Shown one piece after another: positions 1 to 19,128 of a stretch of 64,000 nucleotides of DNA. A program made the translations under genes and the position numbers. This stretch comes from Spongiibacter thalassae. GTDB taxonomy: Bacteria; Pseudomonadota; Gammaproteobacteria; Pseudomonadales; Spongiibacteraceae. The notes beneath the pieces are model-generated. The model saw nothing but the letters and a program-made list of their open reading frames with translations. It had not been told where the DNA came from and did not search any database. Position 1 is the stretch's first letter. The number at the start of each line of letters is the position of its first letter. The DNA lies in NCBI RefSeq assembly GCF_012272835.1, contig NZ_JAAWWK010000002.1:124001-188000 (forward strand), written 5' to 3'.

Positions 1-926
1 GAGCCAAAACCGAGTTTGTCGCGGATGGCCGCGGCTACTGCATCACCGCCGTCGCCGGCAAGCATGTCCTGCAACTGTTCGTCAGGGATTTGTGCGAGTA
101 CTTTTGCCTGGAATTTGGCCCAGAGTCTGGGTACTGAAATGAAGTCAGTGGGTTGGCAGTGGTGAAGTTCGTCAACAAAGGTTTCCAGACCTTCGGAGAA
201 GAAGAGTTCTACCTGGCCGTAAATAGATGTGATTGCGACCACTGAGCGCTCGGTAATATGAGCCAGTGGCAGGTAAGACATCATACGGTGTAGTTGATCT
301 CCGCCAACCATACGGTTTTTGGTTTCAGTAGCGGCGGCACCGAGGTGGCCGTGAGTCAGTAATACGCCCTTGGGCTTTCCGGTGCTACCCGAAGTGTAGA
401 CGATGGTAGCCATGTCGTCCGCTTTCGGGGAGTGATAGCTATCCAGTGGCGCCGAGGAATCCAAAATGCCTTGCCAGGACAGGGCACCGGCGTATTGGGC
501 GTTGGCGTCCGGTAAGGTGATGACCGGGATATTGGCCAGACTTTGTTGTGCGGCGCTACAGTTGTCCAATTTTCCTACAAAACACAGTTTTGCTTCACTG
601 TGCTCAAGTACATATTCGATAGTCTCTGATGAGGCGGTGGAATAAATGGGTACCGGTATGATCCCTGCTAGCATCATGCCGAAATCCGCCGCAAGCCAGG
701 CGTAGCTGTTTTTGGCGAGAATAGCGACTCGGTCGCCGGGTTCAATACCTTGTTTTAATAGGGCATTGGCGACCCGGCTACCCTCATCAATAACTTCGGC
801 AATCGTGTAGCTTTTCCATACACCGTTGGTGGGCTGATGCAGCCATGTTTCGTTGGGCCTGTTTTTTAAATTAGCGGTCAGCTGCTCGATGGGAAGCACG
901 TAAGTAGAAGTATCGGTAGCGGTCAT
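1..926 (-). CDS. Long-chain acyl-CoA synthetase (AMP-binding), N-terminal part, cut by window edge
   Basis: Reading leftward from ATG at 924-926, about 308 residues are visible before the window ends. The AMP-binding P-loop YTSGSTGKPKGV lies at about residues 173-184 and is followed by the PLAHITER segment typical of FadD15-type long-chain acyl-CoA ligases. The enzyme would activate a fatty or branched-chain acid to its CoA thioester with ATP, probably at the membrane face. An AGGGA ribosome site precedes the start. It sits about 1 kb from an acyl-CoA dehydrogenase operon and could supply that operon's substrate. The C-terminal domain is outside the window, so substrate class cannot be judged. 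Confidence 0.9.
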   Translation of the reverse strand, partial: MTATDTSTYVLPIEQLTANLKNRPNETWLHQPTNGVWKSYTIAEVIDEGSRVANALLKQGIEPGDRVAILAKNSYAWLAADFGMMLAGIIPVPIYSTASSETIEYVLEHSEAKLCFVGKLDNCSAAQQSLANIPVITLPDANAQYAGALSWQGILDSSAPLDSYHSPKADDMATIVYTSGSTGKPKGVLLTHGHLGAAATETKNRMVGGDQLHRMMSYLPLAHITERSVVAITSIYGQVELFFSEGLETFVDELHHCQPTDFISVPRLWAKFQAKVLAQIPDEQLQDMLAGDGGDAVAAAIRDKLGFG

Positions 927-1094
927 AGGCAATATCCCTTTTGTTATCTGATATATTTCAGGTGTACTGGTGTATTCTCTGAGTGTACTTAATATCGGAA
1001 AATCACTGAGTAATAATGAGTGTTATAACCGATTGCTATAAATTGCATTACATTTGAGTTTTGATAAGCTGGAAATTGAGCAGTAACTGCAACA

Positions 1095-1676
1095 TTAGAT
1101 CAGGAGCTCTAATATGCAAGCGACTAATAGTGTAATCAGTGCTACCACAATTTTTGGTCCCGCTAATATAAACCATTTCCCAGCGGGAAAGGCGATAGTG
1201 CTCGCCACCGCGTCGAGCTTCAATTGGTGATGATCGCAGCCAAAAGTTTTCGGTAGTATCTCCAGCAGGTCACGCCGACTGCGATAACGGATGGCGGCCA
1301 TTGCTGCCCAGTCGCTATTCTGCTCGCAATTGACGTGCTCAATATTGGCCCCACAGCGCAGTGCAGTTATAACCGGGTGACCAGCTTTGCGCAGGAGTTG
1401 CCCGAGAAAAACCCTTTGATAGGCGGCTAATTTAGCGCTTGATTCCCTAACAGGCTTTTTCAGCGTGATTAAATTGACCATAACGAAGTCGCGCCCGTCA
1501 TCGTTGGCAAAAAAATCCCGCAGCCCCTTGGCGCGCGCAGCCGGAATGCCAGAATCGGTAGCCCATTGCTGAAAGCGGTCAGCTTCCAGTGGCGTAATTT
1601 TCTTCCTTGGTCTGGCATACCAAAGCCAAAATACCGCGTAGACCAAACCAGCTATTACCCAGATAGCCTGCGTCAT
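1095..1676 (-). CDS. Membrane-anchored DUF1330-like protein of unknown function
   Basis: A 193 aa protein. The start at 1676 was chosen because AAGG sits 9 bases upstream, whereas the longer upstream reading has no such site. Residues about 3-20 form one hydrophobic segment, and a second lies at the extreme C-terminus (about 172-192). Between them the segment GRDFVMVNLITLK and a later WAAMAAIRYRSRRDLLEI resemble the dimeric alpha/beta-barrel DUF1330 family, which is usually a free ~100 aa domain. Flanking it with two membrane anchors is unusual. Function is unknown. It is divergent from the MDR oxidoreductase gene and could share the operator at 1976-2002. Confidence 0.65.
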   Translation of the reverse strand: MTQAIWVIAGLVYAVFWLWYARPRKKITPLEADRFQQWATDSGIPAARAKGLRDFFANDDGRDFVMVNLITLKKPVRESSAKLAAYQRVFLGQLLRKAGHPVITALRCGANIEHVNCEQNSDWAAMAAIRYRSRRDLLEILPKTFGCDHHQLKLDAVASTIAFPAGKWFILAGPKIVVALITLLVACILELLI

Positions 1677-1975
1677 TCGAGAACACCTTGCGTTAATTTT
1701 ATTCCAGTCCATTTGGTGGCGCGGGCTGATTGTCAGCTCACTGACCATCGAGTAATTTCCGGCCCATAATTTAATGGCACTAATGCTGCCATTATATGGC
1801 CCTGTGGTCAACGCGTGGAAGAATCCAACGTATGCTGACTTACAACATAGCACAGAGTGAGTTTCTCAAGGTTTTTCTGTTTGTGACTGGCCCGGATGGT
1901 TGGCAGGCCAAGTCGCTCTCGGGTGGTTTGGGAAATAACTAGACCGCTCTGCGCATAGATTGAGTTCTTCCTTGA

Positions 1976-2002
1976 TATATTGGCACATGATGTGTCAATA
2001 TA
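1976..2002. promoter_or_regulatory. 27 bp inverted-repeat operator before the catabolic operon
   Basis: Two 13-base arms around a single G match at 12 of 13 positions. The core is TGGCAC-N5-GTGTCA. It ends 31 bases before the MDR oxidoreductase start. The same core with the same spacing recurs at 12477-12493 before the leftward GST operon. Size and symmetry fit a TetR- or GntR-type dimeric repressor, which is not encoded in this window. The -12 half of a sigma-54 promoter (TTGC) is missing, so it is not read as one. Confidence 0.65.
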
Positions 2003-2032
2003 AGTACGAACGATATAACAGGTGCTCGATTG

Positions 2033-3040
2033 ATGACCACACAGCCAACACAAGTTCGCTTTAACAAGCCCGCCGAGGGTATTCCAGGTAACAATACCTG
2101 GACGATTACTCATGACCCGATTGCAGATCCGAGGGAAGGTGAAATAGCAATAAAGCTGCATTATTTGTCAATCGATCCGGCGATCAAGGGCTGGATTACC
2201 GACAAAAAGAGCTACATCGAGGCAGTTAAACCCGGTGATGTTATGCGGGGATTCGGTGTTGCAGAGGTCATCGCCAGTGAATCCGATTACTTTAGTGTCG
2301 GGGATTTCTGCACGGGTTTCACCGGAATTCAGACCCACGCGACCATGGATAGCCGCCAGTTGCGCAAAATTGATCCCCAGCTGGCGCCCCTGTCACGCTT
2401 TATGGGTGGCCTGGGAATGCCGGGTTTTACTGCGTATTTTGGCCTGCTGGACATCGGTAAACCGGCTCCAGGGGAAACGGTGGTCGTGTCGTCTGCAGCG
2501 GGGGCAGTCGGCCACATAGTGGCACAGATAGCCAAGCTAAAAGGCTGCCGTGTGGTAGGTATTGCCGGTGGCGAGGCGAAATGCGCTTATCTGCGGGACG
2601 AACTGAAACTCGATGCGGTGATTGATTACCGTGAGGGCAACCTCCCTGAGGCGCTGGCAGTTGCGGCTCCTGAAGGGGTAGATGTTTATTTTGATGGTGT
2701 GGGGGGCGAAACCCTCGATGCCGTGCTAATGGTTGCCAATCGACATGCCCGGATTATTGCTTGTGGCGCGGTATCCCAGTACGCCAACCTGGAGGCACCT
2801 CAAGGGCTTGGGAACTACATGCTCGTTATTACGCAAAGCCTGATGATCAAGGGCTTTACAATGCGTGATTATATGCACCGAATCAAGGAGGCCTTTATAG
2901 ATCTTCTGACGTGGGAGCATGAAGGAAAGGTCGTCTTTCGAGAACATATACTGAATGGTATCGAGTGCTACCCGGAAGCGGTAAAGATGATCTACTCCGG
3001 TAAAAATAATGGCAAGCTGATGATCAAAGTGAGTGACTGA
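2033..3040 (+). CDS. NADP-dependent medium-chain oxidoreductase (CurA/leukotriene B4 dehydrogenase type)
   Basis: A 335 aa zinc-independent MDR protein. ATG at 2033 is preferred over the in-frame TTG at 2030. The N-terminal GroES-like part carries the family segment LSIDPAIKGW (about residues 43-52). The Rossmann part carries VVSSAAGAVGHIVAQIAKLKG (about 151-171) and FDGVGGETLDAVL. Relatives reduce the double bond of alpha,beta-unsaturated ketones or aldehydes with NADPH in the cytoplasm. It is the first gene of a six-gene operon and overlaps the next start by one base. Substrate is unknown; the context suggests reduction of an unsaturated intermediate. Confidence 0.88.
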   Translation: MTTQPTQVRFNKPAEGIPGNNTWTITHDPIADPREGEIAIKLHYLSIDPAIKGWITDKKSYIEAVKPGDVMRGFGVAEVIASESDYFSVGDFCTGFTGIQTHATMDSRQLRKIDPQLAPLSRFMGGLGMPGFTAYFGLLDIGKPAPGETVVVSSAAGAVGHIVAQIAKLKGCRVVGIAGGEAKCAYLRDELKLDAVIDYREGNLPEALAVAAPEGVDVYFDGVGGETLDAVLMVANRHARIIACGAVSQYANLEAPQGLGNYMLVITQSLMIKGFTMRDYMHRIKEAFIDLLTWEHEGKVVFREHILNGIECYPEAVKMIYSGKNNGKLMIKVSD

Positions 3041-4197
3041 TGGCCGACTCTACGATTTTATATGGCGCCCCTATGTCCTTGTTTACCGGCAAGGTAAGGG
3101 CTTATCTGCGCAAACAACACATACCTTTTGATGAGCGTATGCCGGGGAGTGCGCGCTGTATTGAACAGGTTTTTCCTGCAATTAAACGTCGCGTAGTGCC
3201 CGTGGTGGAATTGCCCGATGGGCGTTTAATTCAGGACTCTGTGGATATTATCGATCACTTCGATGCGCAAGCCACGCGCCGATTTTCTATTTATCCTAGC
3301 GCGCCAAAACAGCGTCTGGCCGCTTTGATACTGGATTTGTTTGGCAGCGAGGGCTTGTTCAAAGTCGCCATGCATTTCCGCTGGAGTTTTCCCGAAGGGA
3401 ACCAAGCCTTTCTACAGCGCGAATTCGGCGATCATATTGTGCCCGGTGCTGATCAAGCAATGGTGTTATCGATCGCCGAAGCGGGTATGGAGCCGATGCG
3501 TAAGTACCTGCCACTGATGGGGGTCAATGCCGAGAGCGCAGCGCTGATTGAAGCGCAATACGACGAGGTATTGGCCCTGCTGAATGAGCACTTCGCAAAG
3601 CATCCGTATCTCTTTGGAGGTTTGCCCTGCGTAGCCGATTACGGACTTCTGGCACCACTCTACGCCCATTGCGGTAGAGATCCCTACCCCAGTGCAATCA
3701 TGAAGAGTAAAGCCCAGCGCGTTTACCGCTGGCTCGAGCGTATGCAGGCACCCGACCGGGATATGCCGGAGTTTGATGACTATCAGGAGTTACTATTTCC
3801 AGAGGATGGAATACCCGATACGGTCTGTCGCCTGCTCGCGCTAGTGGGGCGTGATTTTTTGCCGGAACTGGAACAGACCGTTGCGGTAGTAAATCGTCAT
3901 CTGGAAGCTGCGCCTAACGATATCTCCGGGCGGTGTGTGACCGCAAAACCCCACATCAAAATGCTCGATACCATGCAATACAACTTCCGCGGAGCCTTAC
4001 TCGACGGCATGGTGGTTCCGTACCGCCTGTATATGTTGCAGCGCATTACGGATTACTTCGCACAGTTATCGGCGGCGGAGCAGGACCGCATGGTTTCTTT
4101 CTACCGTCCGCTGGGCCTGGCACCTTTACTGACCATGAAGGCATGTCGACGCGTCGAACGTGAACACCACATTGAAGTATGGGGACACGCCCAGTAG
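3040..4197 (+). CDS. Long glutathione S-transferase-fold protein (385 aa)
   Basis: The N-terminal 75 residues form a thioredoxin-fold GST domain: an ILYGAPMSLFTGKVRAYLRK start with Ser13 in the usual catalytic area, VVPVVELPDG with the cis-Pro, and QDSVDIIDHF. A helical GST C-domain containing HPYLFGGLPCVADYGLLAPLY follows, and then about 130 extra residues beyond the usual 200-230 aa GST length. ATG 3040 overlaps the previous TGA by one base, so the genes are coupled. A clear paralogue of nearly the same length begins the opposing operon at 12433. The reaction is unknown; glutathione conjugation or thiolytic ether/halide cleavage are family options. Confidence 0.8.
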   Translation: MADSTILYGAPMSLFTGKVRAYLRKQHIPFDERMPGSARCIEQVFPAIKRRVVPVVELPDGRLIQDSVDIIDHFDAQATRRFSIYPSAPKQRLAALILDLFGSEGLFKVAMHFRWSFPEGNQAFLQREFGDHIVPGADQAMVLSIAEAGMEPMRKYLPLMGVNAESAALIEAQYDEVLALLNEHFAKHPYLFGGLPCVADYGLLAPLYAHCGRDPYPSAIMKSKAQRVYRWLERMQAPDRDMPEFDDYQELLFPEDGIPDTVCRLLALVGRDFLPELEQTVAVVNRHLEAAPNDISGRCVTAKPHIKMLDTMQYNFRGALLDGMVVPYRLYMLQRITDYFAQLSAAEQDRMVSFYRPLGLAPLLTMKACRRVEREHHIEVWGHAQ

Positions 4198-4235
4198 TTG
4201 CTGCGGAGTCGCCCAATGTACATAGGAATATTTCG

Positions 4236-5159
4236 ATGAAAGTATTGCGAACGCCGGACAGCTGTTTTGAAGGACTGCCGGATTTTGATTACGCGCCGCA
4301 CTACACGACGATCCATGCTGACGACGGCACCCCTTTGCGGATACACCACATCGACGAAGGTCCGGCCGACGCCGAACCGATCCTGCTGATGCACGGTAAT
4401 CCGACGTGGAGTTACCTGTATCGGCACATGATTCCTGGCTTGCTCAAAACCGGTCGCCGGGTTATCGCACTTGATTTGGTAGGCTGCGGCCGCAGTGATA
4501 AACCTGCCCAGAAAAAAGACTATACCCTGGCCAGGCATTGCGTCTGGTTGACGCAGTGGCTGCTCGCCAATGATCTGAAAAATATTACGCTGTTTTGTCA
4601 GGATTGGGGTGGGATCATTGGCTTGCATCTGGTCGCCCATCATCCTGAGCGTTTTGATCGGATAATTGCCGCCAATACCGGCCTACCTATCGGAAAAGGC
4701 GCCAATCAGTTCCTGCGCGTCTGGCCGGCAGTCATGCGCTATGCACCGTCCTTTCCCTGGCGTCTGGCCTTCAGGAAGGTGCTGCAACGCCAGCTGACAG
4801 TAAAGGAATTCGCTGCTTTTGAGAGAGCCCCTTTCCCTGCCCGGAAATATCAGGCGGGCATCAAAAAATTTCCTGCATTACTTACGGTGTTTCCAGACCA
4901 CCCTGAGGTAGAAATTAATCGCGAGACATGGGCAAGGCTTAAGTCCTTTGATAAGCCTTTTTTGACGCTATACGGTGACCGTGACCCGGTAAGTAAAGGC
5001 TACGAAAAAATCATTCAGCGCTATGTGCCCGGGGCGCAAGGGCAAGCTCATAAGATTATTGAAGGTGGCGGTCATTTTATTCAGGAAGACAAGGCGGCCG
5101 AATTAGTGGCTGAAATAACTCGCTTTCTTGCAGCCAAAGAGAATAAAGCAGGGTGTTAA
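4236..5159 (+). CDS. Haloalkane dehalogenase family alpha/beta hydrolase (HLD-I, DhlA-like)
   Basis: A 307 aa protein. ATG 4236 has AGGA nine bases upstream and is preferred over the ATG at 4179, which overlaps the GST gene. The HGNPTWSYLYRHMIP oxyanion block (residues 53-67), the nucleophile Asp123 in CQDWGG with Trp124 as the expected halide ligand, the acid Asp250 in GDRDP and His280 in GGGHF give the complete Asp-Asp-His triad of subfamily I haloalkane dehalogenases. Such enzymes hydrolyse carbon-halogen bonds to alcohol plus halide. The following SDR could oxidise the alcohol. Some members of this family act on other esters or epoxides, so the substrate is inferred. Confidence 0.85.
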   Translation: MKVLRTPDSCFEGLPDFDYAPHYTTIHADDGTPLRIHHIDEGPADAEPILLMHGNPTWSYLYRHMIPGLLKTGRRVIALDLVGCGRSDKPAQKKDYTLARHCVWLTQWLLANDLKNITLFCQDWGGIIGLHLVAHHPERFDRIIAANTGLPIGKGANQFLRVWPAVMRYAPSFPWRLAFRKVLQRQLTVKEFAAFERAPFPARKYQAGIKKFPALLTVFPDHPEVEINRETWARLKSFDKPFLTLYGDRDPVSKGYEKIIQRYVPGAQGQAHKIIEGGGHFIQEDKAAELVAEITRFLAAKENKAGC

Positions 5160-5195
5160 TAGGTACTGCTATAAATATTAAGCGGCGGGCTAGCT

Positions 5196-5993
5196 ATGCC
5201 TAATCAGTATGTTTCTCAATCCCGGGTTCTTGTAACGGGTGCTGCTGGCGGTCTGGGCAGATCGTTAGCATTGGCTTATGGCCGGCGGGGCTGGAAAGTG
5301 GCTGTGTGTGATATTGATCGTGACGGACTGGAAGCGGTCGCGCAGCAACTACGGTCAGTGGGCTCAGAAGTACTAGCGGCCCACTGTAATGTGACCGTAG
5401 ACAACGACTTGACGGATCTCTGTAAGCGTTGCGAAAAGGAGTGGGGCGGGCTTGACGTGTTGATCAACAACGCCGGTATAGCCTCAATGGCGGCTATACA
5501 CAAAGAGCCTATGGAACGCTGGCAGCGTCTGATCGATATAAACCTGCTGGGTGTGGTGCGTGGCTGCCACAGCTTTGTCCCGTTGTTTAGAAAACAGGGT
5601 GGTGGACATATCGTTAATATTGCTTCCATTGCAGGCATTGCCAATACCCCTTTTATGGCGGCCTACAACGCGACTAAAGCCGCGGTCATAAGTGTGTCGG
5701 AAACTTTGCTGGTAGAGCTGGCACCGAGCAATATCGGCGTTACGGTGGTTTGCCCGGCCATGTTTAAAACTGGAATTGCGCAACGCGCGCCTATCGATAA
5801 CCCGGAACTCCGCAATGCACTGGAAGCCGAGATGGCAAAGTCTCCTATCAGTGCCGAGGATATTGCTGAGCAGGCTTTTTCTGCTGTGCAGCGCAAGCAG
5901 TTTTTACTTATCCCTCACCGCGCCAGCCGCTGGCAATGGCGCATTAAGCGCATATCTTCCAGCTTGTATCGCCGACTATTCTTGAAGTATTAG
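5196..5993 (+). CDS. Short-chain dehydrogenase/reductase
   Basis: A 265 aa classical SDR. The cofactor motif TGAAGGLGRSLA is at about residues 15-26, NNAG at about 91-94, and the catalytic Ser, Tyr and Lys lie in IASIAGI...YNATK (about 143-161). An acidic residue after beta-2 (CDID) favours NAD over NADP. It oxidises or reduces a secondary alcohol/ketone pair in the cytoplasm. It starts 36 bases after the dehalogenase gene and 48 bases before the acyl-CoA dehydrogenase gene, so it probably handles the alcohol made by its neighbour. The substrate cannot be read from sequence. Confidence 0.9.
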   Translation: MPNQYVSQSRVLVTGAAGGLGRSLALAYGRRGWKVAVCDIDRDGLEAVAQQLRSVGSEVLAAHCNVTVDNDLTDLCKRCEKEWGGLDVLINNAGIASMAAIHKEPMERWQRLIDINLLGVVRGCHSFVPLFRKQGGGHIVNIASIAGIANTPFMAAYNATKAAVISVSETLLVELAPSNIGVTVVCPAMFKTGIAQRAPIDNPELRNALEAEMAKSPISAEDIAEQAFSAVQRKQFLLIPHRASRWQWRIKRISSSLYRRLFLKY

Positions 5994-6041
5994 GTCCGAC
6001 AGAGCGCGTATCATCCATAATTTAAAAGGAATCCATGTGTA

Positions 6042-7829
6042 ATGAGCGAATACAAAGCCCCTCTGCGAGATATAACGTTCAGCCTGAATGAGGTACTTGA
6101 TTACCCTCGTCACTGCGAAAAGATTGGCACCGATGAGGTGAATGAAGAACTTGTGTCTGCCATCCTGGAAGAAGCGGCAAAATTTGCCGAGCAGGAAATT
6201 GCGCCGCTGAACGCCGTCGGGGATCAGGAAGGATGTCACTGGGTTGATGGCAATGTCACTACGCCCTCGGGGTTTAAAGACGCCTACCAACAGTTTATTG
6301 AGGGAGGCTGGTGCGGTTTGGCGATGCCACAGGAATATGGCGGGCAGGGACTGCCGGGTTCGCTCAACTTTGCTATTAACGAGATGTTATTTTCGGCCAA
6401 CCACGCCTGGACAATGTACCCGACCTTGTCAGCTGGCGCGGTTGAGACCATTCTTGCACACGGTACTGATCAGCAAAAAAATACCTTCCTGGAGAAGTTG
6501 GTTGCCGGTCAGTGGAGTGGCACTATGTGTCTCACTGAGGCCCATTGTGGCTCGGACCTGGGATTACTGCGGACCAAGGCAATAGCCAATGACGATGGCA
6601 GCTACAGCGTTACCGGTAGCAAAATATTTATTTCTGCCGGTGACCACGACCTGACTGAAAACATTATTCACCTGGTACTGGCACGGCTACCAGGCGCGCC
6701 GAGTGGCGTTAAAGGCATTTCGCTTTTTATTGTGCCCAAGTTTACGATTAAAGCGGATGGAATGCCTGGCGAAGTCAACGGCGTCAGCTGTGGTTCCATT
6801 GAAGAAAAAATGGGTATTCACGGCAATGCAACCTGCGTGATCAACTTCGATAGCGCCAAGGGATATTTGATAGGCGAGCCGAACAAAGGCATGGCCAGTA
6901 TGTTCACCTTTATCAACGAATCAAGGCTGGGTGTAGCAATTCAGGGCCAGGCACATATGCAGGTGGCGTACCAGAAGTCATTGGGATACGCGAAGGAGCG
7001 TGTGCAAATGCGCGCGAGCAAGCGTGTACTAATTGATCAACCTGCGGATCCGATTATCGCTCACCCTGATGTGCGCCGCATGTTGCTGATGCAGAAATCA
7101 CTGGCAGAGGGTGGGCGAATTCTCAACCATATCTGCGGCTTGTATTCGGATATTGCCCATAGCGCAACCAGCGCCGACGAAAAAGGCCGAGCCCACGCAA
7201 TGTTGGCTGTGCTAACGCCGATCGCCAAAGGTTTTCTGACGGAAGTCAGTATGGAAGCTACCCAAAATGGTCTACAAGTACTCGGTGGCCACGGATTTAT
7301 CCGCGAATGGGGTCTTGAACAGGAATACCGAGACACCCGTATTACCGCGATTTATGAGGGTACCAATACGATTCAGGCGCTGGATTTGCTGGGCCGGAAA
7401 ATACTGGCGTCCGGAGGTGAAATACTGGAGCCTTATATGGCGGAACTGGATGCTTTTTGTCAGGAGCATCGCGCCGGTGAAATTTCCTCCTTTGTAGCAC
7501 GAATCGAAGATTTGAAAAGCGATTTACAAACGCTGACAGCCAATATCGGGAAGCGAGCAATGGAAGGCGAGGCAGACGCAGTGGGCTCAGCTGCCTTCGA
7601 CTATTTGATGTATATTGGCTATCTTACCCTGGCGTGGTGTTGGGCCAAGGTAGCAGTGACAGCCCATGGGGCCCTTGGCCGCGGTACCGCCGAAAGTGCG
7701 TTCTATAAGTCCAAGCTGGCTACCGCCGACTTCTATTTTGAGCGTCTTTTACCCCGTGCCAATGTTCACGCGACGACTTTAAATGCCTCGAGCGATAGCC
7801 TGATGCAATTAGAGGCCGATTCCTTCTAG
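6042..7829 (+). CDS. Acyl-CoA dehydrogenase, FadE-type with C-terminal extension
   Basis: A 595 aa FAD-dependent acyl-CoA dehydrogenase. It carries MCLTEAHCGSDLG (about residues 165-177), the FAD-site stretch around YSVTGSKIFISAGDHD, and the catalytic-Glu segment IYEGTNTIQALDLLGR (about 437-452). The length exceeds the ~380 aa mitochondrial type and matches bacterial FadE-like enzymes with an acyl-CoA_dh_C tail. It introduces the trans-2 double bond in beta-oxidation. AAAGGAA precedes the start; the nearby ATG at 6036 is in another frame and is not used. It is the fifth gene of the operon. Confidence 0.93.
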   Translation: MSEYKAPLRDITFSLNEVLDYPRHCEKIGTDEVNEELVSAILEEAAKFAEQEIAPLNAVGDQEGCHWVDGNVTTPSGFKDAYQQFIEGGWCGLAMPQEYGGQGLPGSLNFAINEMLFSANHAWTMYPTLSAGAVETILAHGTDQQKNTFLEKLVAGQWSGTMCLTEAHCGSDLGLLRTKAIANDDGSYSVTGSKIFISAGDHDLTENIIHLVLARLPGAPSGVKGISLFIVPKFTIKADGMPGEVNGVSCGSIEEKMGIHGNATCVINFDSAKGYLIGEPNKGMASMFTFINESRLGVAIQGQAHMQVAYQKSLGYAKERVQMRASKRVLIDQPADPIIAHPDVRRMLLMQKSLAEGGRILNHICGLYSDIAHSATSADEKGRAHAMLAVLTPIAKGFLTEVSMEATQNGLQVLGGHGFIREWGLEQEYRDTRITAIYEGTNTIQALDLLGRKILASGGEILEPYMAELDAFCQEHRAGEISSFVARIEDLKSDLQTLTANIGKRAMEGEADAVGSAAFDYLMYIGYLTLAWCWAKVAVTAHGALGRGTAESAFYKSKLATADFYFERLLPRANVHATTLNASSDSLMQLEADSF

Positions 7830-7920
7830 CACGACTCTCCGCGTTATATAGCGACGTCTTGCTACGCACTGCGAATTTGCGCCGGGGCTATTTTTGCTGT
7901 CAAACTGTGCCTGCCCGGTG

Positions 7921-7936
7921 TCCCTGTTAACAGGGA
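7921..7936. repeat. Perfect 16 bp palindrome before the thioesterase gene
   Basis: TCCCTGTTAACAGGGA is a perfect inverted repeat in the 131 bp gap between the acyl-CoA dehydrogenase and thioesterase genes, 25 bases before the GTG at 7961. No T-run follows, so termination is less likely than protein binding or transcript processing. It is unlike the TGGCAC-N5-GTGTCA operator. Confidence 0.45.
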
Positions 7937-7960
7937 AACCGAGTAATAATATTAACGTCA

Positions 7961-8440
7961 GTGAAGTTTGTAATAGGGAACCATTATTCCGTGGCTGATA
8001 AACCGGAAGTAGACCACTATGTCGGGCTGGTGTCGATGTATAAAACGGCGCCGATAAATGCGTTTTATCGGCCGGAAATGGTCGTTAGTAAAGGTGAAGC
8101 GGTTATCGAAATTGCCGTATCAGACCAACATTTTCATTCTGCCGGAGCGGTACATGGCTCGGTGTATTTCAAGATGTTGGATGACGCGGCCTTTTTCGCG
8201 GCGAATTCAATGGAACCGGACTATTTCGTGCTGACCACCTCTTTCACTACTTACCTGACTCGTCCTGTGTCCTCAGGAAAGTTGAAGTCGGTTGGTCGTG
8301 TTGTTAACAGCAATAAGAGCCAGTTTATTGCGGAATCTGTGGTCTACGACGATCAGGGTCGGGAAATTGGCAGAGGGAATGGCATTTTTATGCGTAGCAG
8401 AATGCCCCTCGCCGATGTTCCGGGCTATTCATCGGACTGA
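7961..8440 (+). CDS. PaaI-family hotdog thioesterase
   Basis: A hotdog-fold acyl-CoA thioesterase of up to 159 aa. The family segment HFHSAGAVHGSVYFKMLDDAAFFAANS (about residues 54-80) carries the usual HGG-like turn and the acidic active-site residue. It would release free acid from an acyl-CoA or aryl-CoA. The reading starts at GTG 7961, but GTG 7991 has AGGGA 11 bases upstream and could be the true start, giving 149 aa. It is the last gene of the rightward operon, and its stop is followed within 10 bases by a hairpin. Confidence 0.85.
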   Translation: MKFVIGNHYSVADKPEVDHYVGLVSMYKTAPINAFYRPEMVVSKGEAVIEIAVSDQHFHSAGAVHGSVYFKMLDDAAFFAANSMEPDYFVLTTSFTTYLTRPVSSGKLKSVGRVVNSNKSQFIAESVVYDDQGREIGRGNGIFMRSRMPLADVPGYSSD

Positions 8441-8448
8441 AGACATCT

Positions 8449-8472
8449 GCGGGCCTGATCATTCAGGCCCGC
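8449..8472. terminator. Hairpin shared by two converging operons
   Basis: A perfect 10 bp stem (GCGGGCCTGA and its complement) with a TCAT loop lies in the 45 bp between the stops of the thioesterase gene (+) and the GST gene (-). There is no strong T-run on either side. Its symmetry and placement fit a bidirectional terminator. Confidence 0.7.
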
Positions 8473-8485
8473 TCCGACGCCGTGT

Positions 8486-9127
8486 TTAGTTCAAGCCCAG
8501 TGTCCGGGCCTCCTTTGCAAGAATGGTCTTGACCTGTGGAATCTGCCGAACCCGCTCAATAAGCGCCGCCAGTTTCGGCCATCGACCGGCGTCTACCTGA
8601 TAACCCGCATAGTCTGCATTGTAAAAGGGGCTGGCTATGCTCATATCGGCCATGGAGAACTCGCCGAAGATAAAGCCTTCGGCGGGCAATTCACCCTCCA
8701 GATAGTCGAGTAGCGGTGGCAATTGCTTATCGATGATCTTGGAGACCAGCTCTTCGTCGGGCTCCTGTTTAAAGGCGAAAGGCCGCATAAAGCGCTGGAA
8801 GAATATGCCGGTGGCCAATTCTGCTACCGGGCCCGTCGCCAGGTCTTCGTACCAGTCGGCCCGGCCCCGGTCTTTGATGTCGGCCGGGTATAACGGCGTA
8901 TCAGGGTAAGCGCTCTCCAGGTAACGGCAGATGACTTTCGAATCCCCCAGAGTCAGATCACCATCTACCAGCGTGGGGATCTTTCCCAGCGGGTTAAGTT
9001 TCTGATAGTTCTCGTCGCGGGCAAAGGGCATCTGTGGGACCAGTTCGTACGGCACCTGCTTTAGATCCAGCAACACCAGCACTTTGCGCACAAATGGCGA
9101 GCCGTACACACCGTGAATTTTTATCAT
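8486..9127 (-). CDS. Glutathione S-transferase family protein
   Basis: A 213 aa soluble GST of normal length. The N-domain shows YGSPFVRKVLVLLDL with Ser10 as the probable thiol-activating residue, NPLGKIPTLVDGD with the cis-Pro, and GDSKVICRYLE (the ESxxI-type glutathione site). The C-domain contains FIFGEFSMADMSIASPFYN. It would act in the cytoplasm in conjugation or glutathione-dependent cleavage. It is the last gene of the leftward operon, three bases after the DUF2855 gene. Confidence 0.9.
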   Translation of the reverse strand: MIKIHGVYGSPFVRKVLVLLDLKQVPYELVPQMPFARDENYQKLNPLGKIPTLVDGDLTLGDSKVICRYLESAYPDTPLYPADIKDRGRADWYEDLATGPVAELATGIFFQRFMRPFAFKQEPDEELVSKIIDKQLPPLLDYLEGELPAEGFIFGEFSMADMSIASPFYNADYAGYQVDAGRWPKLAALIERVRQIPQVKTILAKEARTLGLN

Positions 9128-9130
9128 GGG

Positions 9131-10234
9131 TTACTCCTGACCTTTGAGCAGCGTGGCCATAATACCGACACTGCCCGGGACTTTGTTGTCGAGGAGATTG
9201 TGCCAACTTTGATCCACCGCGTCTGCCCCCTGCGACCACTCTACGTGAATAATATTATTGACCTTTGCTGAAATGGACAGTGTTGCTTCCATGGCCTTCA
9301 TCATCAAAACCCCTGGGCCCCATTCTTTGTCTCGTTTGGCGATTTGTCCGGGCGCAAAGAAAAAGGTCGGCTTGGCGCCGGGGAGCTCTCCTGCCTTGCC
9401 ACCATCCTCCCAATGGCTTGCGCCGACCATAGCACTTTCAACAATATTGTTTTTGATGTGACCATGTAAGGCCCGGGTCAGTTTTATATCGCCGGACATA
9501 TCAACGTAGGCTGTCGGCAATGATGGGTCGATGTCAGCTTCGTTGCCGTAAGTCACTATCTGGTCACAGCATTTCAGAGACTCGACAAAGGGTGCATTGC
9601 GTTCGGAGGTTACGCCGATGACCTTCTGTGTCACCGTGAGATCATTTTGCAACAGGGTGGCGAGGCCAAAGCCGGTTTTTGACGAAGCAGAGCCGACCAC
9701 TACCTGTTGCGCACCAAAAAAATTGTTGTCAACCAAGTAGTCGTAGAGTACGTAGCCGGTGGCGATCAGGGGGAACAGCAGGCATCGTTCAGTTTCGTAT
9801 TGCTGGACAATGTCGGGTTCGTGCTGTGTGCGGCGGTACGAGCTATACAGCCCTGTACCGGGTAGCTCCTTACGGTGTGGCGCGACATCAATAAAACTGT
9901 CCTCCTGCACCTTGCCGGGTTGCAAAATAGTATGGCTGCTCATGGGAAAAAAGCCGTAAAGTCGCTCGCCCACTGCGATATCTTCGGAGCGAGATTCAAT
10001 GACGTTTCCACACCCCCATACAGTGACCTTGCCCCAGTTGTCCGTTGCTGGATAGAACTTCCAGTAGCCAATGAAATCGCCGGATACCGCATAGCTGACG
10101 TTGTTGGCTGTAAGACCAAACTTGTCAATTGCAACGGTAATTTCGCCCGCATCAAGAGCGCGTAGCGGCACATTCACAATTTTGGTTTTGCGGAAATTGC
10201 TGCGGTCTACCCACAGTTCTGTACATTCGGTCAC
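9131..10234 (-). CDS. DUF2855 family protein (MDR-like, function unknown)
   Basis: A 367 aa protein starting at GTG 10234 with AAGGAG six bases upstream. The pattern GEITVAIDKFGLTANNVSYAVSG near the N-terminus and VVGSASSKTGFGLATLL near residues 176-192 match DUF2855, a family resembling medium-chain dehydrogenases without the zinc site and with an altered nucleotide loop. No reaction is established. It lies between two GST genes, so a role with glutathione-bound or CoA-bound intermediates is possible but inferred. Confidence 0.82.
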   Translation of the reverse strand: MTECTELWVDRSNFRKTKIVNVPLRALDAGEITVAIDKFGLTANNVSYAVSGDFIGYWKFYPATDNWGKVTVWGCGNVIESRSEDIAVGERLYGFFPMSSHTILQPGKVQEDSFIDVAPHRKELPGTGLYSSYRRTQHEPDIVQQYETERCLLFPLIATGYVLYDYLVDNNFFGAQQVVVGSASSKTGFGLATLLQNDLTVTQKVIGVTSERNAPFVESLKCCDQIVTYGNEADIDPSLPTAYVDMSGDIKLTRALHGHIKNNIVESAMVGASHWEDGGKAGELPGAKPTFFFAPGQIAKRDKEWGPGVLMMKAMEATLSISAKVNNIIHVEWSQGADAVDQSWHNLLDNKVPGSVGIMATLLKGQE

Positions 10235-10264
10235 AGTATTCTCCTTATTGGTTGTAGCGGTAAT

Positions 10265-10948
10265 TTACTTTTGCAGCATTTTGTTCGCGTTTTGGGTGAA
10301 TTCTCTCCGGGCTTTTTCGTCGTTCAGCAGATTTTCTATCTTGAAAGGGACTTCAAGGCCTTTTTCCATCCCTGGCTGACCTCCCATCACATTTAGCCAG
10401 CGTTCGAGGTTGTTGAGCCCCTCGATGGATACCCCTGACCATTTGTAGGTTCTTACCCAGCACCAGTTGGCAATGTCGGCAATGGAGTAATCATCGGCCA
10501 GCCATTCGTTTTGCCCAAGACGATAGTCGAGAACCTCGAATAGACGGCGGCTTTCCTTCTGATAGCGGTCGATGGCCGGTTGCAGTTTTTCCGGAAAATA
10601 GCGGAAAAAGACATTGGCTTGTCCCATCATCGGGCCGACACCCCCCATCTGGAACATCAGCCACTGTATGACCCTTGCCCGGCCTTTAGCCTCGGTGGGT
10701 AGCAAACGCCCGGCTTTTTCGGCGAGATATATCATGATGGCGCCGGATTCAAATAAGGGGAAATCTCCGAGGTCGGAGTCAATGATTGCCGGTATGCGAC
10801 CATTGGGGTTAATCTTCAGGAACGTCGGCTTTTTCTGTTCTCCTTCGCCGATGTTCACAAAATGGCTGGTGTAGTCGAACTCAAGGGCCTCCAGGGTACA
10901 GGAGGCTTTGTGACCATTGGGTGTGGGTGCGGTATACAGTTCAATCAT
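10265..10948 (-). CDS. Glutathione S-transferase, YfcG/Ure2-like
   Basis: A 227 aa protein. The [18 protein letters not shown] start with Thr and Asn in the active site, [11 protein letters not shown] and [19 protein letters not shown] are typical of the Nu/YfcG type, whose known members are glutathione-disulfide reductases more than transferases. The C-domain has [19 protein letters not shown]. It is the third gene of the leftward operon, 9 bases after the 102 aa gene and 30 bases before the DUF2855 start. Confidence 0.9.
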
Positions 10949-10957
10949 GGTTATGGC

Positions 10958-11266
10958 TCAGGATAAGGGAGCTTCGCGAAAAAGACCGGTCGGGAATCCT
11001 GTCTGGCGTTGCTGGTATTGAGTAACTAACGCCCGCAGGTCGTTGGGTGGATAGTTGAATGTGCTCTGATAATAGAGCTCTCCGTTCATGGCACTGTCGT
11101 CTGGAAAGAAGTACAAGAGCATTAGCGGAACCTTCGCCTGTGCATAGAAAAGATGCTTATGGGCACAGCGGTCCACCCAGTGAAAGGGAACATTTTTGAA
11201 CTGTGGCGCTGAGCGGGTCTTTAGCGAATAGTCCGACTCCGACAGATAACCCTTTGGGTAACTCAT
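10958..11266 (-). CDS. Small protein of unknown function in the GST operon
   Basis: A 102 aa protein that I do not recognise. It is rich in aromatic residues (11 Tyr or Trp), has one moderately hydrophobic stretch (VPLMLLYFF, about 46-54) and no signal peptide. It sits 21 bases after the 381 aa GST gene and 9 bases before the next GST start, so it is almost certainly co-transcribed. No catalytic motif is visible. It may be a subunit or an orphan small fold. Confidence 0.65.
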   Translation of the reverse strand: MSYPKGYLSESDYSLKTRSAPQFKNVPFHWVDRCAHKHLFYAQAKVPLMLLYFFPDDSAMNGELYYQSTFNYPPNDLRALVTQYQQRQTGFPTGLFREAPLS

Positions 11267-11287
11267 CTGCTGAAACTCCTCAGAAGT

Positions 11288-12433
11288 TTACTGCCAGATT
11301 TCCAGAAAGTTGTGCCGTGCAACCCGCCGCTCGGTATGGCTGGTCAATAGTTGTGACAAGTCGCCGGCAGCAAAAACATCGGCAATATCTCGCTGAGCGG
11401 ATTCAGTCGCCTGCGCGTAACTGTCTTGCAGGTGCTGCAGTAAATAAAATCGGTAGGGCATGACCGAGCTTCTCAGGGGGATGCCCCGCCAATTGAACTG
11501 CGCCATACCAATGAAACGTTGGGCGGGGTCTTCCAGACCATTGCTCCCGGCTGGTAGGTCTGGCCTCGCGGCCAGCCATTGGTTGCTGAACTCGATATGG
11601 GCGAGTATTTCCGGAAGAAAATCTATTGCGATGAAGCGCATCAGCGCCAGTAGGGATTCCGGTAAGTCGGTGTCTGAAACCAAAGCGCTTGCTGCGTTTT
11701 CGTAGTCGGTCCAATTGTCCTCGGCGGTGTTCATGCGCTCCACCCAGCGGGCGACGCCCGGCGCTTTTCTGCGCATCAGTAATCCCGGCTGGGGGTCCCT
11801 GTAGAAGTGGGCGTAGAGGGGCCCCATTAGGGCATAGTCACCCAAGGTGGGGCGACCGCCGAGTAGATATGGGTAGTCGCTGAGGTGGGCTTCAAAAAGT
11901 CGCAAAAATTCATTGAAGCTGGCTTCTATCGCAGCAGCAGAGTGCTCGCTTACACCAAAGGATTTTGCTGCCTTGCGCATACTCCCACTGGCAATATCAA
12001 ACAACTGGGGCCTATCTGACTCCGCTGTCCCTGCGGGCATCAAACAGCGGAACTCTGAGCGGAGGTAATCCAGATTCACCTCATCGAAATTCCACCGGTA
12101 GTGCATGGCTGGGCGCAGCAGGCCCTCACCGCCAAACAGTTCAAACAAATAGGAAACTGCCCGCAATACCGCGGAGTCAGGGAGTGCAGGATACTTAACG
12201 GCTTCATGTGCTTCGCAGTATCGAATGATGTCGGCGCTGTCCTGTACGATGACGCCTTGGGGCGTTTTTAGTACAGGCATGATCATTCGCTTAACAGTCG
12301 GTAGTATCGACGACTGATATTCCCGGGAAGACACGGAATATTCCTCAAAGGGAATGCCCTGTTTACGCAGATAGCTGCGTGCCTTTGCGGTATACAGTGA
12401 GCAGTGAATTCCGAAAAGGGTAAATCGTGACAT
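11288..12433 (-). CDS. Long glutathione S-transferase-fold protein (381 aa), paralogue of the gene at 3040
   Basis: The N-terminal GST thioredoxin domain has CSLYTAKARSYLRKQGIPF near residues 11-29, IMPVLKTPQG with cis-Pro, and QDSADIIRYCE. The helical domain has YPYLLGGRPTLGDYALMGPLYAHF, followed by a long C-terminal extension ending LEIWQ. It aligns along its whole length with the 385 aa protein (shared YLRKQ.IPF, QDS.DII, F.L.G.EGL...MH.RW.F, MPYR.Y.LQ), so the two arose by duplication. It leads the leftward operon behind the operator at 12477-12493. Substrate unknown. Confidence 0.82.
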   Translation of the reverse strand: MSRFTLFGIHCSLYTAKARSYLRKQGIPFEEYSVSSREYQSSILPTVKRMIMPVLKTPQGVIVQDSADIIRYCEAHEAVKYPALPDSAVLRAVSYLFELFGGEGLLRPAMHYRWNFDEVNLDYLRSEFRCLMPAGTAESDRPQLFDIASGSMRKAAKSFGVSEHSAAAIEASFNEFLRLFEAHLSDYPYLLGGRPTLGDYALMGPLYAHFYRDPQPGLLMRRKAPGVARWVERMNTAEDNWTDYENAASALVSDTDLPESLLALMRFIAIDFLPEILAHIEFSNQWLAARPDLPAGSNGLEDPAQRFIGMAQFNWRGIPLRSSVMPYRFYLLQHLQDSYAQATESAQRDIADVFAAGDLSQLLTSHTERRVARHNFLEIWQ

Positions 12434-12470
12434 GTAGACGTGCTCATTGTGAGATAGTCCTAGCAGGCTA

Positions 12471-12498
12471 TCAATATGGCACTTATAGTGTCAATATA
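12471..12498. promoter_or_regulatory. Second copy of the catabolic operator
   Basis: TGGCAC (12477-12482), five bases, then GTGTCA (12488-12493) and a flanking AATATA, identical in core and spacing to the site at 1981-1997. It ends 44 bases upstream of the 381 aa GST start and could also affect the divergent cytochrome gene 130 bases to the right. Confidence 0.6.
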
Positions 12499-12623: not shown

Positions 12624-14813
12624 ATGACCTTTGATCGCTGCAAGCATTTGCTAATGATAGCTCTAGCGGCTTTTCTGGTCATAGGAATGGTAAATGCCGA
12701 AAGCTGTGACGGCTGTCACGGGGGGGAGGTGTCCAGTTGGGGGCAGTCTCACCATGCCCGCTCGATGTTACCGGCTTTACCGGAAAATATTGCGGGTAAG
12801 TTTGACGGCTCAGTAACGTACTACAACGAGCGGGCGTTTCGCTTTGACCTGCAGGACGAACAGTATCAGGTATGGGTGGGCGAGGGTGATAACGCGACCA
12901 GCTATCCAATTGATTATGTGTTCGGTTTTAACCCGCTACAGCAGTACCTGGCCCGCCTTCCTGGCGGGCGATACCAGGCGATACCGGTTGCCTGGGACAC
13001 CAGACCAAAGGAGCAGGGCGGGCAGCGCTGGTTTGCCCTGGAGTCTGATCTGAATTGGGATCACCCGGGTTTCACATGGAATACCTCCTGTGCGGAATGC
13101 CACTCGACTAATCTTGAAAAAGGCTATCGACAGGATACCGATACCTTCCTGACGAGTTTTGGCGAGGTGAATGTGGGGTGCGCTGCTTGTCATGGCTCAG
13201 CCGAGGGGCATCAGCAGTGGCTGGCCTCAGGCCGTCCTTTAACCCCCCACGCGGGGTTCAGTGTGTCATTGGCGGAGGGGGGGCAATGGCAGTGGCTGGA
13301 CGGTGAAACCATTGCCGAACGATTGCGGAAACCGGCGGGGCGACAGCTTTCCACCTGTGCCCAGTGCCACTCTTTACGGCAAAACATTGGTGGGTGGCAT
13401 CCCGATACCCAAATGTTTGACCATCTTATGCTGACGCTGCCTAACCCTCCGAGGTATCACGCCGATGGGCAGGTTCGCGAAGAGGTTTTCGTAATGGGTT
13501 CTTTTTTGCAGAGTCGTATGCATGAAGGTGGTGTGGTCTGTAGTAGCTGCCATGAACCCCACAGCGGCGAGTTGCGTGCTGCCGGTGACGGTACTTGCCT
13601 GCAATGTCATAGAGCCGATACTTACGCCGCAACGGAGCATCATCGCCATCGCCTGGCGGACGTACAATGCGTCGATTGTCATATGCCTGCGACCGTTTAT
13701 ATGGGGGTGGATGCCCGCAGAGACCACCGCTTCGGGGTGCCCGATCCCGTCCTGAGTCGAGCTGTCGGCAGCCCTGACCCGTGCCTGAGCTGCCATGGGG
13801 ATATCCCAATTGACAGACTACAGCAACGACTGCCAGAAAAGGTGACCAGCGGACAGCAGCGGGCTCGTGACTTCGCCCGGATTCAGCAGGAGGGTTTTAC
13901 TGGTGTCGATCACTCCCGGCTGGACGATGGGTATTTCCCATTGCTGCGTGAAGCCAGTCTGCTGCATTTATTATCACCAGCCCTGGCAGCAGACCGGGCC
14001 CTTCTGAGCGATAGGCTCAACCACCCGTCGCCAGTAATACGCGCGGCTGCCATTCGGGCGTTTAATAGCGTGCCATTGTCTGAACGGTGGCGGCTGTTGT
14101 CCCCTTTGTTGTCGGACCCAAGTCGGGCGGTGCGCATGGAACTTGCCCCGGTTTTGGCTGGGGCGGCACCGGATGTCACGACAGAGGCTAAGGCCCAGCA
14201 GTTGGCAGATCTGTTCCGCAACTATGAAGCGCAGATGGAATCCAATCTGGACAGCCCGCAGATTACCGCGAATTTTGCCAACTACTATATGGCCAAAGGC
14301 AACAGACAGCGGGCGAGGGATTTGTTTATGCACGCCGTTAAACTCGACCCAGGTTTTGTCTATCCGTATATACAGCTCTCGGCACTCGCCTCGGAAACGC
14401 CGCAGGAACTTGAATGGTTAAATCGAGGTAAAGCCTACGACAACAGCGGTGGTGTGAGCTATCAGCTCGCGCTCTTTCATGTCCGGCAACGGGACTACGA
14501 TAAAGCCCTGATCGAATTGGAGCAAGCTGTCGCGGCCACCCCTGAACAGGTCACTTACAGCTATGCCTATGCCATCGCGTTGGAAAACACCGGGCACGTT
14601 GAAAAAGCTATCGCAGTATTGGCGCAACTGGATGCTCTGGGTGCTGCTACCACTGAAACCCGTGATTTACAGTTTCGCTATCTGTTCAAGTCCGGTAAAA
14701 AGACCGAGGCCATAGCTTTTATCAAGGAGTGGCTCGAGAAGGAGCCGCAAAACCCTGTTGCTGTCGCATGGCGGCGGCAGGTGGATAGTTGGGTGAAACC
14801 GGCTGAGCGGTAA
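12624..14813 (+). CDS. Octaheme cytochrome c with HEAT and TPR repeats
   Basis: A 729 aa exported protein. Residues 1-26 form a signal peptide ending VNA-ES. Eight CXXCH heme sites are visible at about residues 28, 156, 186, 245, 306, 325, 349 and 387. The segment at about 430-510 has HEAT-like helices (LSDRLNHPSPVIRAAAIRAF) and about 540-715 carries TPR repeats (ARDLFMHAVKLDPGFVYPYI). It should act in the periplasm in electron transfer or as a nitrite/hydroxylamine-type reductase relative. The repeats suggest a partner-binding role. It is monocistronic and divergent from the GST operon. No assembly genes are nearby. Confidence 0.88.
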   Translation: MTFDRCKHLLMIALAAFLVIGMVNAESCDGCHGGEVSSWGQSHHARSMLPALPENIAGKFDGSVTYYNERAFRFDLQDEQYQVWVGEGDNATSYPIDYVFGFNPLQQYLARLPGGRYQAIPVAWDTRPKEQGGQRWFALESDLNWDHPGFTWNTSCAECHSTNLEKGYRQDTDTFLTSFGEVNVGCAACHGSAEGHQQWLASGRPLTPHAGFSVSLAEGGQWQWLDGETIAERLRKPAGRQLSTCAQCHSLRQNIGGWHPDTQMFDHLMLTLPNPPRYHADGQVREEVFVMGSFLQSRMHEGGVVCSSCHEPHSGELRAAGDGTCLQCHRADTYAATEHHRHRLADVQCVDCHMPATVYMGVDARRDHRFGVPDPVLSRAVGSPDPCLSCHGDIPIDRLQQRLPEKVTSGQQRARDFARIQQEGFTGVDHSRLDDGYFPLLREASLLHLLSPALAADRALLSDRLNHPSPVIRAAAIRAFNSVPLSERWRLLSPLLSDPSRAVRMELAPVLAGAAPDVTTEAKAQQLADLFRNYEAQMESNLDSPQITANFANYYMAKGNRQRARDLFMHAVKLDPGFVYPYIQLSALASETPQELEWLNRGKAYDNSGGVSYQLALFHVRQRDYDKALIELEQAVAATPEQVTYSYAYAIALENTGHVEKAIAVLAQLDALGAATTETRDLQFRYLFKSGKKTEAIAFIKEWLEKEPQNPVAVAWRRQVDSWVKPAER

Positions 14814-18899: not shown

Positions 18900-19128
18900 T
18901 GCAAATCTCTCCGGAAGCCAGGGGGATGGCAATGTCGCTGGAAGTCGACTCGGCAGCCATGTCCTTCTCGATCACTTCCCAGATATAGAGAATTTTCCGT
19001 CCACCAAATGGGCGGATGTAGTGCCGTCCTTCGATCAGCACGGAGTCCTTCAGTGCGGTGCGGATCGTAGACGGTTCATAGTGAATGCGCGCAGCGAGCG
19101 CCTCTGTAGTCAGATATGTATAACTCAT
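18892..19128 (-). CDS. Excisionase-like small DNA-binding protein
   Basis: A 78 aa protein with AGGAGAG six bases before the start. Residues 4-55 (LTTEALAARIHYEPSTIRTAL...GRHYIRPFGGRKILYIWEVIEKDM) read as a winged helix-turn-helix of the MerR/Xis/AlpA kind. The position immediately before and overlapping an integrase gene supports a recombination directionality role. Its promoter region contains the inverted operator pair at 19165-19237. Confidence 0.72.
   Translation of the reverse strand: MSYTYLTTEALAARIHYEPSTIRTALKDSVLIEGRHYIRPFGGRKILYIWEVIEKDMAAESTSSDIAIPLASGEICNG

Follow-up and report, generated by a model that had tools for sequence, protein, structure and literature searches.

What two converging operons, each carrying an unusually long glutathione S-transferase (GST) gene behind the same palindrome, are for is the question raised by a 64-kb stretch of the Spongiibacter thalassae genome (64,000 nucleotides, C6:124001-188000 of the source genome; here called the window). 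We found that the two operons belong to a larger cluster, beginning upstream of the window, which is very probably a conserved regulon under TetR control with a clear operator. As to its purpose, we give about even odds (a probability of roughly 0.5) to its being a catabolic regulon of ~30 kb for a sulfated, lipophilic, probably halogenated natural product, with the two operons as its cytoplasmic half. The common operator, the gene families, and the conserved gene set are established at the level of sequence; the substrate and the order of steps are proposals.

Two converging operons in the window

The features concerned are as follows (positions in the window).

3 to 932, minus strand: AMP-binding acyl coenzyme A (acyl-CoA) ligase (AMP-ligase; PF00501), whose 3' part runs on upstream of the window
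1095 to 1853, minus strand: ORF252, a small membrane-anchored protein with no Pfam family
1775 to 1791: operator with one mismatch to TGRCAC-N5-GTGYCA, 27.7 bits with a matrix from other genomes
1981 to 1997: operator TGGCACATGATGTGTCA of the rightward operon
2030 to 3040, plus strand: rightward operon, medium-chain dehydrogenase/reductase (MDR) oxidoreductase (ADH_N_2), akin to curcumin and leukotriene-B4 reductases
3040 to 4197, plus strand: rightward operon, long GST A, 385 aa
4230 to 5159, plus strand: rightward operon, haloalkane dehalogenase (HLD), HGNP subclade
5196 to 5993, plus strand: rightward operon, short-chain dehydrogenase (SDR)
6042 to 7829, plus strand: rightward operon, FadE-like acyl-CoA dehydrogenase with a C-terminal extension
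7961 to 8440, plus strand: rightward operon, hotdog thioesterase
8449 to 8472: perfect hairpin between the converging operons, 10-bp stem and 4-base loop
8486 to 9127, minus strand: leftward operon, GST of 213 aa; top NCBIfam matches PRK10357 and MaiA, both below cut-off
9131 to 10234, minus strand: leftward operon, DUF2855 protein, predicted prostaglandin-reductase-like MDR fold
10265 to 10948, minus strand: leftward operon, GST akin to glutathione-dependent disulfide-bond oxidoreductases (match below cut-off)
10958 to 11266, minus strand: remnant of a 340-aa long GST gene with an internal deletion, leaving a 102-aa open reading frame (ORF)
11288 to 12433, minus strand: leftward operon, long GST B, 381 aa, GST fold plus C-terminal extension
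12477 to 12493: operator TGGCACTTATAGTGTCA, between the leftward operon and the divergent cytochrome gene
12624 to 14813, plus strand: multiheme c-type cytochrome with tetratricopeptide (TPR) repeats, divergent from the leftward operon

The genes, coordinates, and perfect hairpin described in the initial annotation of the window, with one GST of ~380 aa in each operon, all hold; the hairpin lacks a T-run. Two features had been missed, namely, the GST remnant at 10958 to 11266 and the start of the cluster upstream of the window. The 102-aa ORF was rejected as a gene of its own, being a remnant of a gene that is intact in the relative genome G019. The cytochrome gene also lies behind the operator at 12477, and its relative in Zhongshania antarctica (54% identity) has operators on both flanks. 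ORF252 probably starts downstream of the operator at 1775, because most of its relatives, present in 13 of the 38 loci compared, are only 193 to 228 aa long.

The operator is nearly confined to a cluster that begins upstream

The cluster starts at C6:108024, ~16 kb before window position 1, and spans ~31 kb to the end of the cytochrome gene. The upstream locus (C6:104001-124000) encodes a lipoprotein-like protein of the metallo-beta-lactamase (MBL) fold, with the arylsulfatase 8gyg as its best solved relative and a likeness to RNase Z and PNGM-1 as well; a TonB-dependent receptor; a TetR regulator; a third long GST (GST C, 347 aa); a DJ-1/PfpI protein with a hydrophobic N terminus; a weakly DUF4345-like protein; two S1 sulfatases, the first closest to arylsulfatase 1hdh; a protein without a Pfam match; a DSBA-domain protein; and the AMP-ligase that continues into the window, the upstream part of which has a 91% match in G019.

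The exact palindrome TGGCAC-N5-GTGTCA occurs only at window positions 1981 and 12477 in the whole 4.4-Mb genome, and the degenerate form TGRCAC-N5-GTGYCA occurs at three places genome-wide, two of which are the window operators (control pattern, one). The third degenerate palindrome lies outside the cluster, at C7:257322-257338. We then built a position weight matrix from 28 sites of other genomes that lie near the starts of cluster genes and each match TGRCAY-N5-RTGYCA, and scanned it over 124 kb of the source genome. Seven sites scored above 16 bits, all of them inside the cluster (C6:111573, 112364, 112433, 120022, 125775, 125981, and 136477), and the top score in 20 first-order Markov sequences was 15.3. 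Behind these sites lie the genes for the TonB-dependent receptor, TetR and GST C (two sites), the second sulfatase, and ORF252, as well as the MDR and GST B operons. Since the matrix sites were chosen by a consensus first seen in the source genome, the matrix tests the place of the operator and not the discovery of the motif. An operator restricted to the two operons was rejected, because the seven operators span the cluster.

The same palindrome stands before the same genes in other bacterial classes. We counted gene heads in 101 of 136 sources (fragments, redundant loci, and loci L116 and L117 left out), using fixed identity thresholds and taking only the leading 26 kb of the window; the loci are not independent. 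The exact relaxed operator was found near the heads of 54 of 164 cluster transcription units and 17 of 626 others. Allowing one mismatch gave 79 and 33, respectively, and allowing two gave 94 and 87. With A/T flanks required, every relaxed palindrome in four genomes lay inside the cluster (5/5 in the source genome, 6/6 in G019, 4/4 in G001, and 3/3 in G010), and control patterns gave 0, 0, 0, and 1, respectively. The single relaxed operator of G086 is likewise inside its cluster.

Could the two operons share the motif by chance, without being coregulated? When two mismatches were allowed, 12 matches were found in the window, a number reached by 4 of 100 shuffled sequences and thus not clearly above chance, and a longer relaxed pattern with one mismatch was no commoner than its control (equal in matches, three forward and two reverse). 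Therefore, the case for the operator rests on its exact form and on where it lies: the four distinct places of the longer pattern all fall within the 25 kb of C6:111570-136496, and it is the place, not the count, that is the evidence. The exact and relaxed forms are found in the cluster and hardly elsewhere in the genome, and the operator precedes the same genes in relatives, so that chance sharing is extremely improbable and was rejected. The common control of both operons that the initial annotation proposed is well supported, as is its expectation of a nearby TetR-family gene. That gene (PF00440 over the cut-off) lies beside the gene for GST C, and the intergenic stretches to either side of it carry operators; the predicted operators, read from the sequence, fall between TetR and GST C and before the target genes.

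The gene set recurs in other Proteobacteria

To follow the genes beyond this genome, we used a survey of 96 genomes, the source genome included, and a sample of loci made up of the best 80 of 532 confirmed GST B relatives, which favors close relatives; redundant loci were dropped from the co-occurrence counts and trees. A strict GST B (best match of at least 41% identity, near full length) was present in 9 of the 28 genomes with matches. All nine carry a TetR homologue, compared with 9 of the 87 other genomes (the 18 include one partial match, in G062), and seven carry a DUF2855 protein, compared with 10 of 87; Fisher tests on such counts take no account of how closely the genomes are related. 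The cluster-type HLD was found in six genomes, all among the nine; this count omits a partial 60% match in G058.

The two arms do co-occur elsewhere: in Gamma-, Beta-, and Alphaproteobacteria, both long GSTs are accompanied by the HGNP subclade of the HLD. GST A and GST B are found together in the window, in G019, G086, G073, and G032 (there on two contigs), in one alphaproteobacterial locus, and in two near-alike betaproteobacterial loci. An HLD of at least 50% identity is present in 15 loci, of which 7 have both the MDR and the GST A gene within four genes. Of the 38 compared loci, 17 have the second S1 sulfatase, 16 have an HLD-like protein, and 12 have the first S1 sulfatase. The gene order differs between lineages, yet much of the gene set and the operator are kept, which speaks for a functional unit. 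Searches for plasmid-borne close relatives gave one 37.5% match for long GST B and none for the HLD at an E value of 1e-80.

Several observations weigh against reading the cluster as one conserved catabolic regulon for a halogenated compound. Because the loci were fetched by GST B, the neighborhood within them is not an unbiased sample. FadE and the thioesterase each occur in only 3 of the 38 compared loci, with further relatives at 56 to 57% identity for FadE in L040 and L041 and at 72 to 75% for the thioesterase in L127 and L174. At least one relaxed operator is present in 25 of the 87 genomes without a strict GST B, the mean in these 87 being 0.40 (control, 0.17 over all 96 genomes), and a whole-genome scan of G029, which has the cluster, found none. 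In G023, G073, G032, and G005, only 2 of 7, 2 of 4, 2 of 3, and 1 of 2 sites, respectively, lie in known cluster stretches, and the actinobacterial loci contain no exact operator. Four genomes of the same genus (G002, G004, G007, and G008) have a TetR homologue beside short GSTs and no GST B match, and the stretches fetched from them (L160 to L163) contain neither an HLD nor an exact operator. These stretches encode the TetR homologue (47 to 51% identity), a disulfide-oxidoreductase-like GST, and, in some, the AMP-ligase and sulfatases, with no long GST; L160 and L163 have an operator with one mismatch. Such gene sets are perhaps an older core of the regulon. Finally, the cluster-type HLD and DUF2855 are absent from G001 and G010, which keep the operator, GST B, TetR, and sulfatases, and no other observation counts as heavily against the substrate being strictly halogenated.

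The dehalogenase and the question of a halogen

The window protein is a haloalkane dehalogenase by fold family and aligned catalytic positions. It scores 394 bits with NF002043 (haloalkane dehalogenase; cut-off, 265) and can be aligned over almost its whole length with the solved enzymes 5esr, 6f9o, and 4mj3 (E values of 3e-100 to 4e-91), which we take to be DccA, DpcA, and DmrA of subfamily HLD-I. Conserved in these alignments are the Asp-Trp pair, the cap Trp, the later Asp, and the His, which presumably make up the catalytic set (a nucleophilic Asp with a Trp after it, the cap Trp, a catalytic Asp, and a His). Unlike those three solved enzymes, the cluster enzyme has HGNP in place of HGEP and sits in an operon under a common operator. 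HGEP was found in 5 of 5 solved relatives and in all 17 of the non-cluster paralogue places that were fetched, whereas HGNP is shared by the window enzyme and its 13-row clade (support 100/100) from Gamma-, Beta-, and Alphaproteobacteria and one metagenome-assembled genome labeled Acidobacteriota. On the tree, the split is a single change with weak support (58/39). HGEP-type enzymes are encoded, too, in four loci (L046, L085, L088, and L105) that have long GST, DUF2855, or sulfatase genes, and a divergent 7-row HLD-like clade lacking the CQDW motif has HGNP as well. HGNP therefore characterizes a clade without strictly identifying the cluster. The 13 HGNP-clade loci were mostly fetched by GST B, for which the 96-genome search is the unbiased check: its six best full-length HLD matches (58 to 100%) all lie in clusters of this kind, and the next full-length match is at 49%. 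In subfamily II, the halide-stabilizing pair is Asn and Trp, according to a section of PMC10619424, and by inference, the cluster HLDs may use the Asn of HGNP likewise.

Two further groups of loci bear HLD-like genes. The actinobacterial loci L051, L062, L064, L072, and L073 combine long GSTs with the divergent HGNP clade that lacks CQDW, and in two other genomes (L146 and L147), an HGEP-type HLD lies beside a DUF2855 gene, a second, separate link between these families.

These data bear directly on whether the substrate is halogenated at all. The same regulon might serve a sulfated but nonhalogenated compound (a terpenoid, a steroid side chain, or an oxylipin), with the HLD-like enzyme attacking a different electrophilic carbon or being active in certain hosts only. 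G001 and G010, which retain the operator, GST B, TetR, and sulfatases without a cluster-type HLD, are what this would predict, and sulfatases are at least as constant as the HLD (17 and 12 loci against 16 of 38). The HLD nevertheless keeps the aligned catalytic positions of the solved enzymes, and its 13-row clade sits in long-GST loci of several classes. We regard a nonhalogenated substrate as possible, if on the unlikely side.

Long GSTs and the DUF2855 protein

GST A and GST B share 36% identity over 379 columns. In the tree of long GSTs, GST B falls in a clade of 23 rows (99/95) and GST A in one of 8 rows (95/80), and by their sequences, the two are old paralogues and not a recent copy. 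Both score over the cut-off for GST_N_3, and a model of GST B (pLDDT of 93) matches the GST fold, so that, as predicted, the long GSTs combine a thioredoxin-like N-terminal domain with a helical C-terminal domain. In the putative glutathione site, D65 is invariant across 41 aligned rows (39 of the 55 long-GST loci and the two window proteins), S12 and Q64 are nearly so, and the third residue is mostly Gly (QDG, not Q-[DE]-S). The best fold match of GST B is StyI of Gordonia (9qd3), with a TM score of 0.73 by target length and 0.48 by its own. Because most of the listed fold alignments cover only ~230 to 266 of its 381 residues, the C-terminal part was probably added onto the GST fold; in the model, it consists of helices and strands.

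Neither GST B nor the DUF2855 protein had a sequence relative in the PDB at an E value of 0.01. The alignment of DUF2855 proteins covered 25 of their 28 places. The model of the window protein (pLDDT of 92.5) matches prostaglandin reductase 1, also known as leukotriene B4 12-hydroxydehydrogenase, and related double-bond reductases with E values of ~1e-15, which places it in the MDR superfamily by predicted fold. Its identity to the matches is 9 to 15% in the 50 fold alignments listed. The MDR protein of the rightward operon is a sequence relative of the same enzymes, below the family cut-off. Since both are reductase-like, each arm would comprise one long GST and one reductase of the prostaglandin reductase kind.

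A proposed pathway and its substrate

The two S1 enzymes carry the formylglycine motif C-x-[PA]-x-R (CAPAR and CAPSR), and the genome has a formylglycine-generating enzyme (C1:198604-199485, 262 bits); on motif and genome content, both are type I (formylglycine) sulfatases. In sequence and in this motif, they resemble the Pseudomonas-type arylsulfatase 1hdh and the carrageenan sulfatases 9fo1 and 6prm. The cluster sulfatases (the S1 enzymes and the 8gyg-like protein) differ from these solved relatives and from 8gyg in lying beside GSTs and an HLD under a TetR operator, and no polysaccharide utilization genes were found among the annotated cluster neighbors. From the sulfatases and the receptor, one would expect an exogenous sulfated amphiphile; from the HLD, an aliphatic halide; and from the AMP-ligase, FadE, and thioesterase, an acyl product.

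The closest known systems are the isoprene (IsoGHIJ) and styrene (StyI/StyJ) pathways, in which, according to PMC10057887 and PMC8552685, one GST opens an epoxide and a dehydrogenase oxidizes the adduct; for what follows, the proposal is CoA activation and a second GST that takes the glutathione off. The cluster would resemble them in having two functionally different GSTs, a dehydrogenase, CoA activation, and putative glutathione removal, with a predicted candidate for each activity (conjugating GST, glutathione-removing GST, and CoA activation). The disulfide-oxidoreductase-like GST, which we presume to be of class Nu, could act as IsoJ does. Unlike those pathways, the cluster has no soluble di-iron monooxygenase among its annotated genes (a flavoprotein resembling flavin-containing monooxygenases is present in the loci of three relatives), uses an AMP-ligase and not a CoA-transferase, has GSTs of ~380 aa, and adds sulfatases, a receptor, an HLD, and TetR with its operator.

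On this model, with entry by desulfation and dehalogenation instead of mono-oxygenation, a lipophilic sulfate ester would enter through the TonB-dependent receptor and lose its sulfate to the envelope sulfatases. Inside the cell, the HLD would hydrolyze C-X bonds, and the long GSTs would add glutathione to epoxide or halide carbons. The SDR, MDR, and DUF2855 proteins would carry out oxidations and double-bond reductions, the AMP-ligase would form the CoA ester, and the disulfide-oxidoreductase-like GST would remove the glutathione, after which FadE and the thioesterase would hand the chain to beta-oxidation. The substrate or an intermediate would free TetR from every operator simultaneously. 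The route that the initial annotation suggested, glutathione-dependent degradation of a lipophilic or halogenated compound, thus fits the gene set, with the reservation that the halogen part is not universal, because the G001 and G010 clusters lack a cluster-type HLD. In that annotation, the common control was recognized and the sulfatases, the receptor, and the MDR fold of DUF2855 went unseen.

The same genes could be read as a detoxification regulon for lipophilic electrophiles, such as algal allelochemicals, and not as a growth pathway. The many GST-fold proteins, the DJ-1/PfpI-type protein, and the prostaglandin-reductase-like enzymes would suit such a role, but the receptor, the several sulfatases, the AMP-ligase, FadE, and the thioesterase point to uptake and assimilation, and we consider detoxification doubtful. 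A halogenated aromatic sulfate, for example, a red-algal bromophenol sulfate dehalogenated by the GSTs, would account for the arylsulfatase-like enzymes, and GSTs are able to dehalogenate haloaromatics. Haloalkane dehalogenases, however, act on aliphatic C-X bonds, and no ring-cleaving dioxygenase was found among the annotated genes (for the relatives, a subset of their ORFs), making an aromatic substrate very unlikely.

Within the reading that we favor, a sulfated and probably halogenated lipophilic product, the boldest candidate substrates are the chlorosulfolipids, polychlorinated alkyl sulfates of algae, which would unite the sulfate, halide, and acyl traits. They are reported from freshwater chrysophytes and from coastal seawater, with a peak during algal blooms (sections of PMC13413282). 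It is a speculative and fairly unlikely possibility that the cluster is the first recognizable bacterial pathway of chlorosulfolipid turnover, a module spread among aquatic Proteobacteria and made up of the receptor, several sulfatases, a dedicated HLD subclade, and long GSTs that strip vicinal or geminal chlorine. In the open-license papers searched, we found no description of a sulfatase-HLD-long GST set and no paper on DUF2855, and bacterial chlorosulfolipid breakdown was not among the matches listed, judged by title or the start of the abstract. PMC10919026, as far as its available sections go, gives counts of HLD and GST genes for macroalgal metagenomes but links them in no set of this kind, and "sulfat" is absent from its text; the available sections of PMC8371827 and PMC6299022 contain nothing on the gene set.

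Flanking genes and implications

Just past the cluster, a tyrosine-type integrase gene and a TraI_2-like fragment (16693 to 18932) lie near a tRNA-Lys gene (19641 to 19715), and the cluster may have arrived on an island inserted at this tRNA gene. Farther on, flagellar genes, including those of the FlgK, FliF, and FHIPEP families, occupy 31475 to 59959, with a gene for a 908-aa TPR/polysaccharide-pyruvyl-transferase protein among them.

The HLD family is a workhorse of enzymology whose biological role was still described as poorly understood in a 2023 structural paper (PMC10619424). Here, one of its subclades is found in a conserved, apparently coregulated gene set, and its association with sulfatases and long GSTs narrows the hunt for a natural substrate. 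The DUF2855 proteins and the long GSTs gain a testable context from the same set. If the substrate is a chlorosulfolipid, the cluster supplies candidate genes for its breakdown, and this HLD clade would have a natural function.

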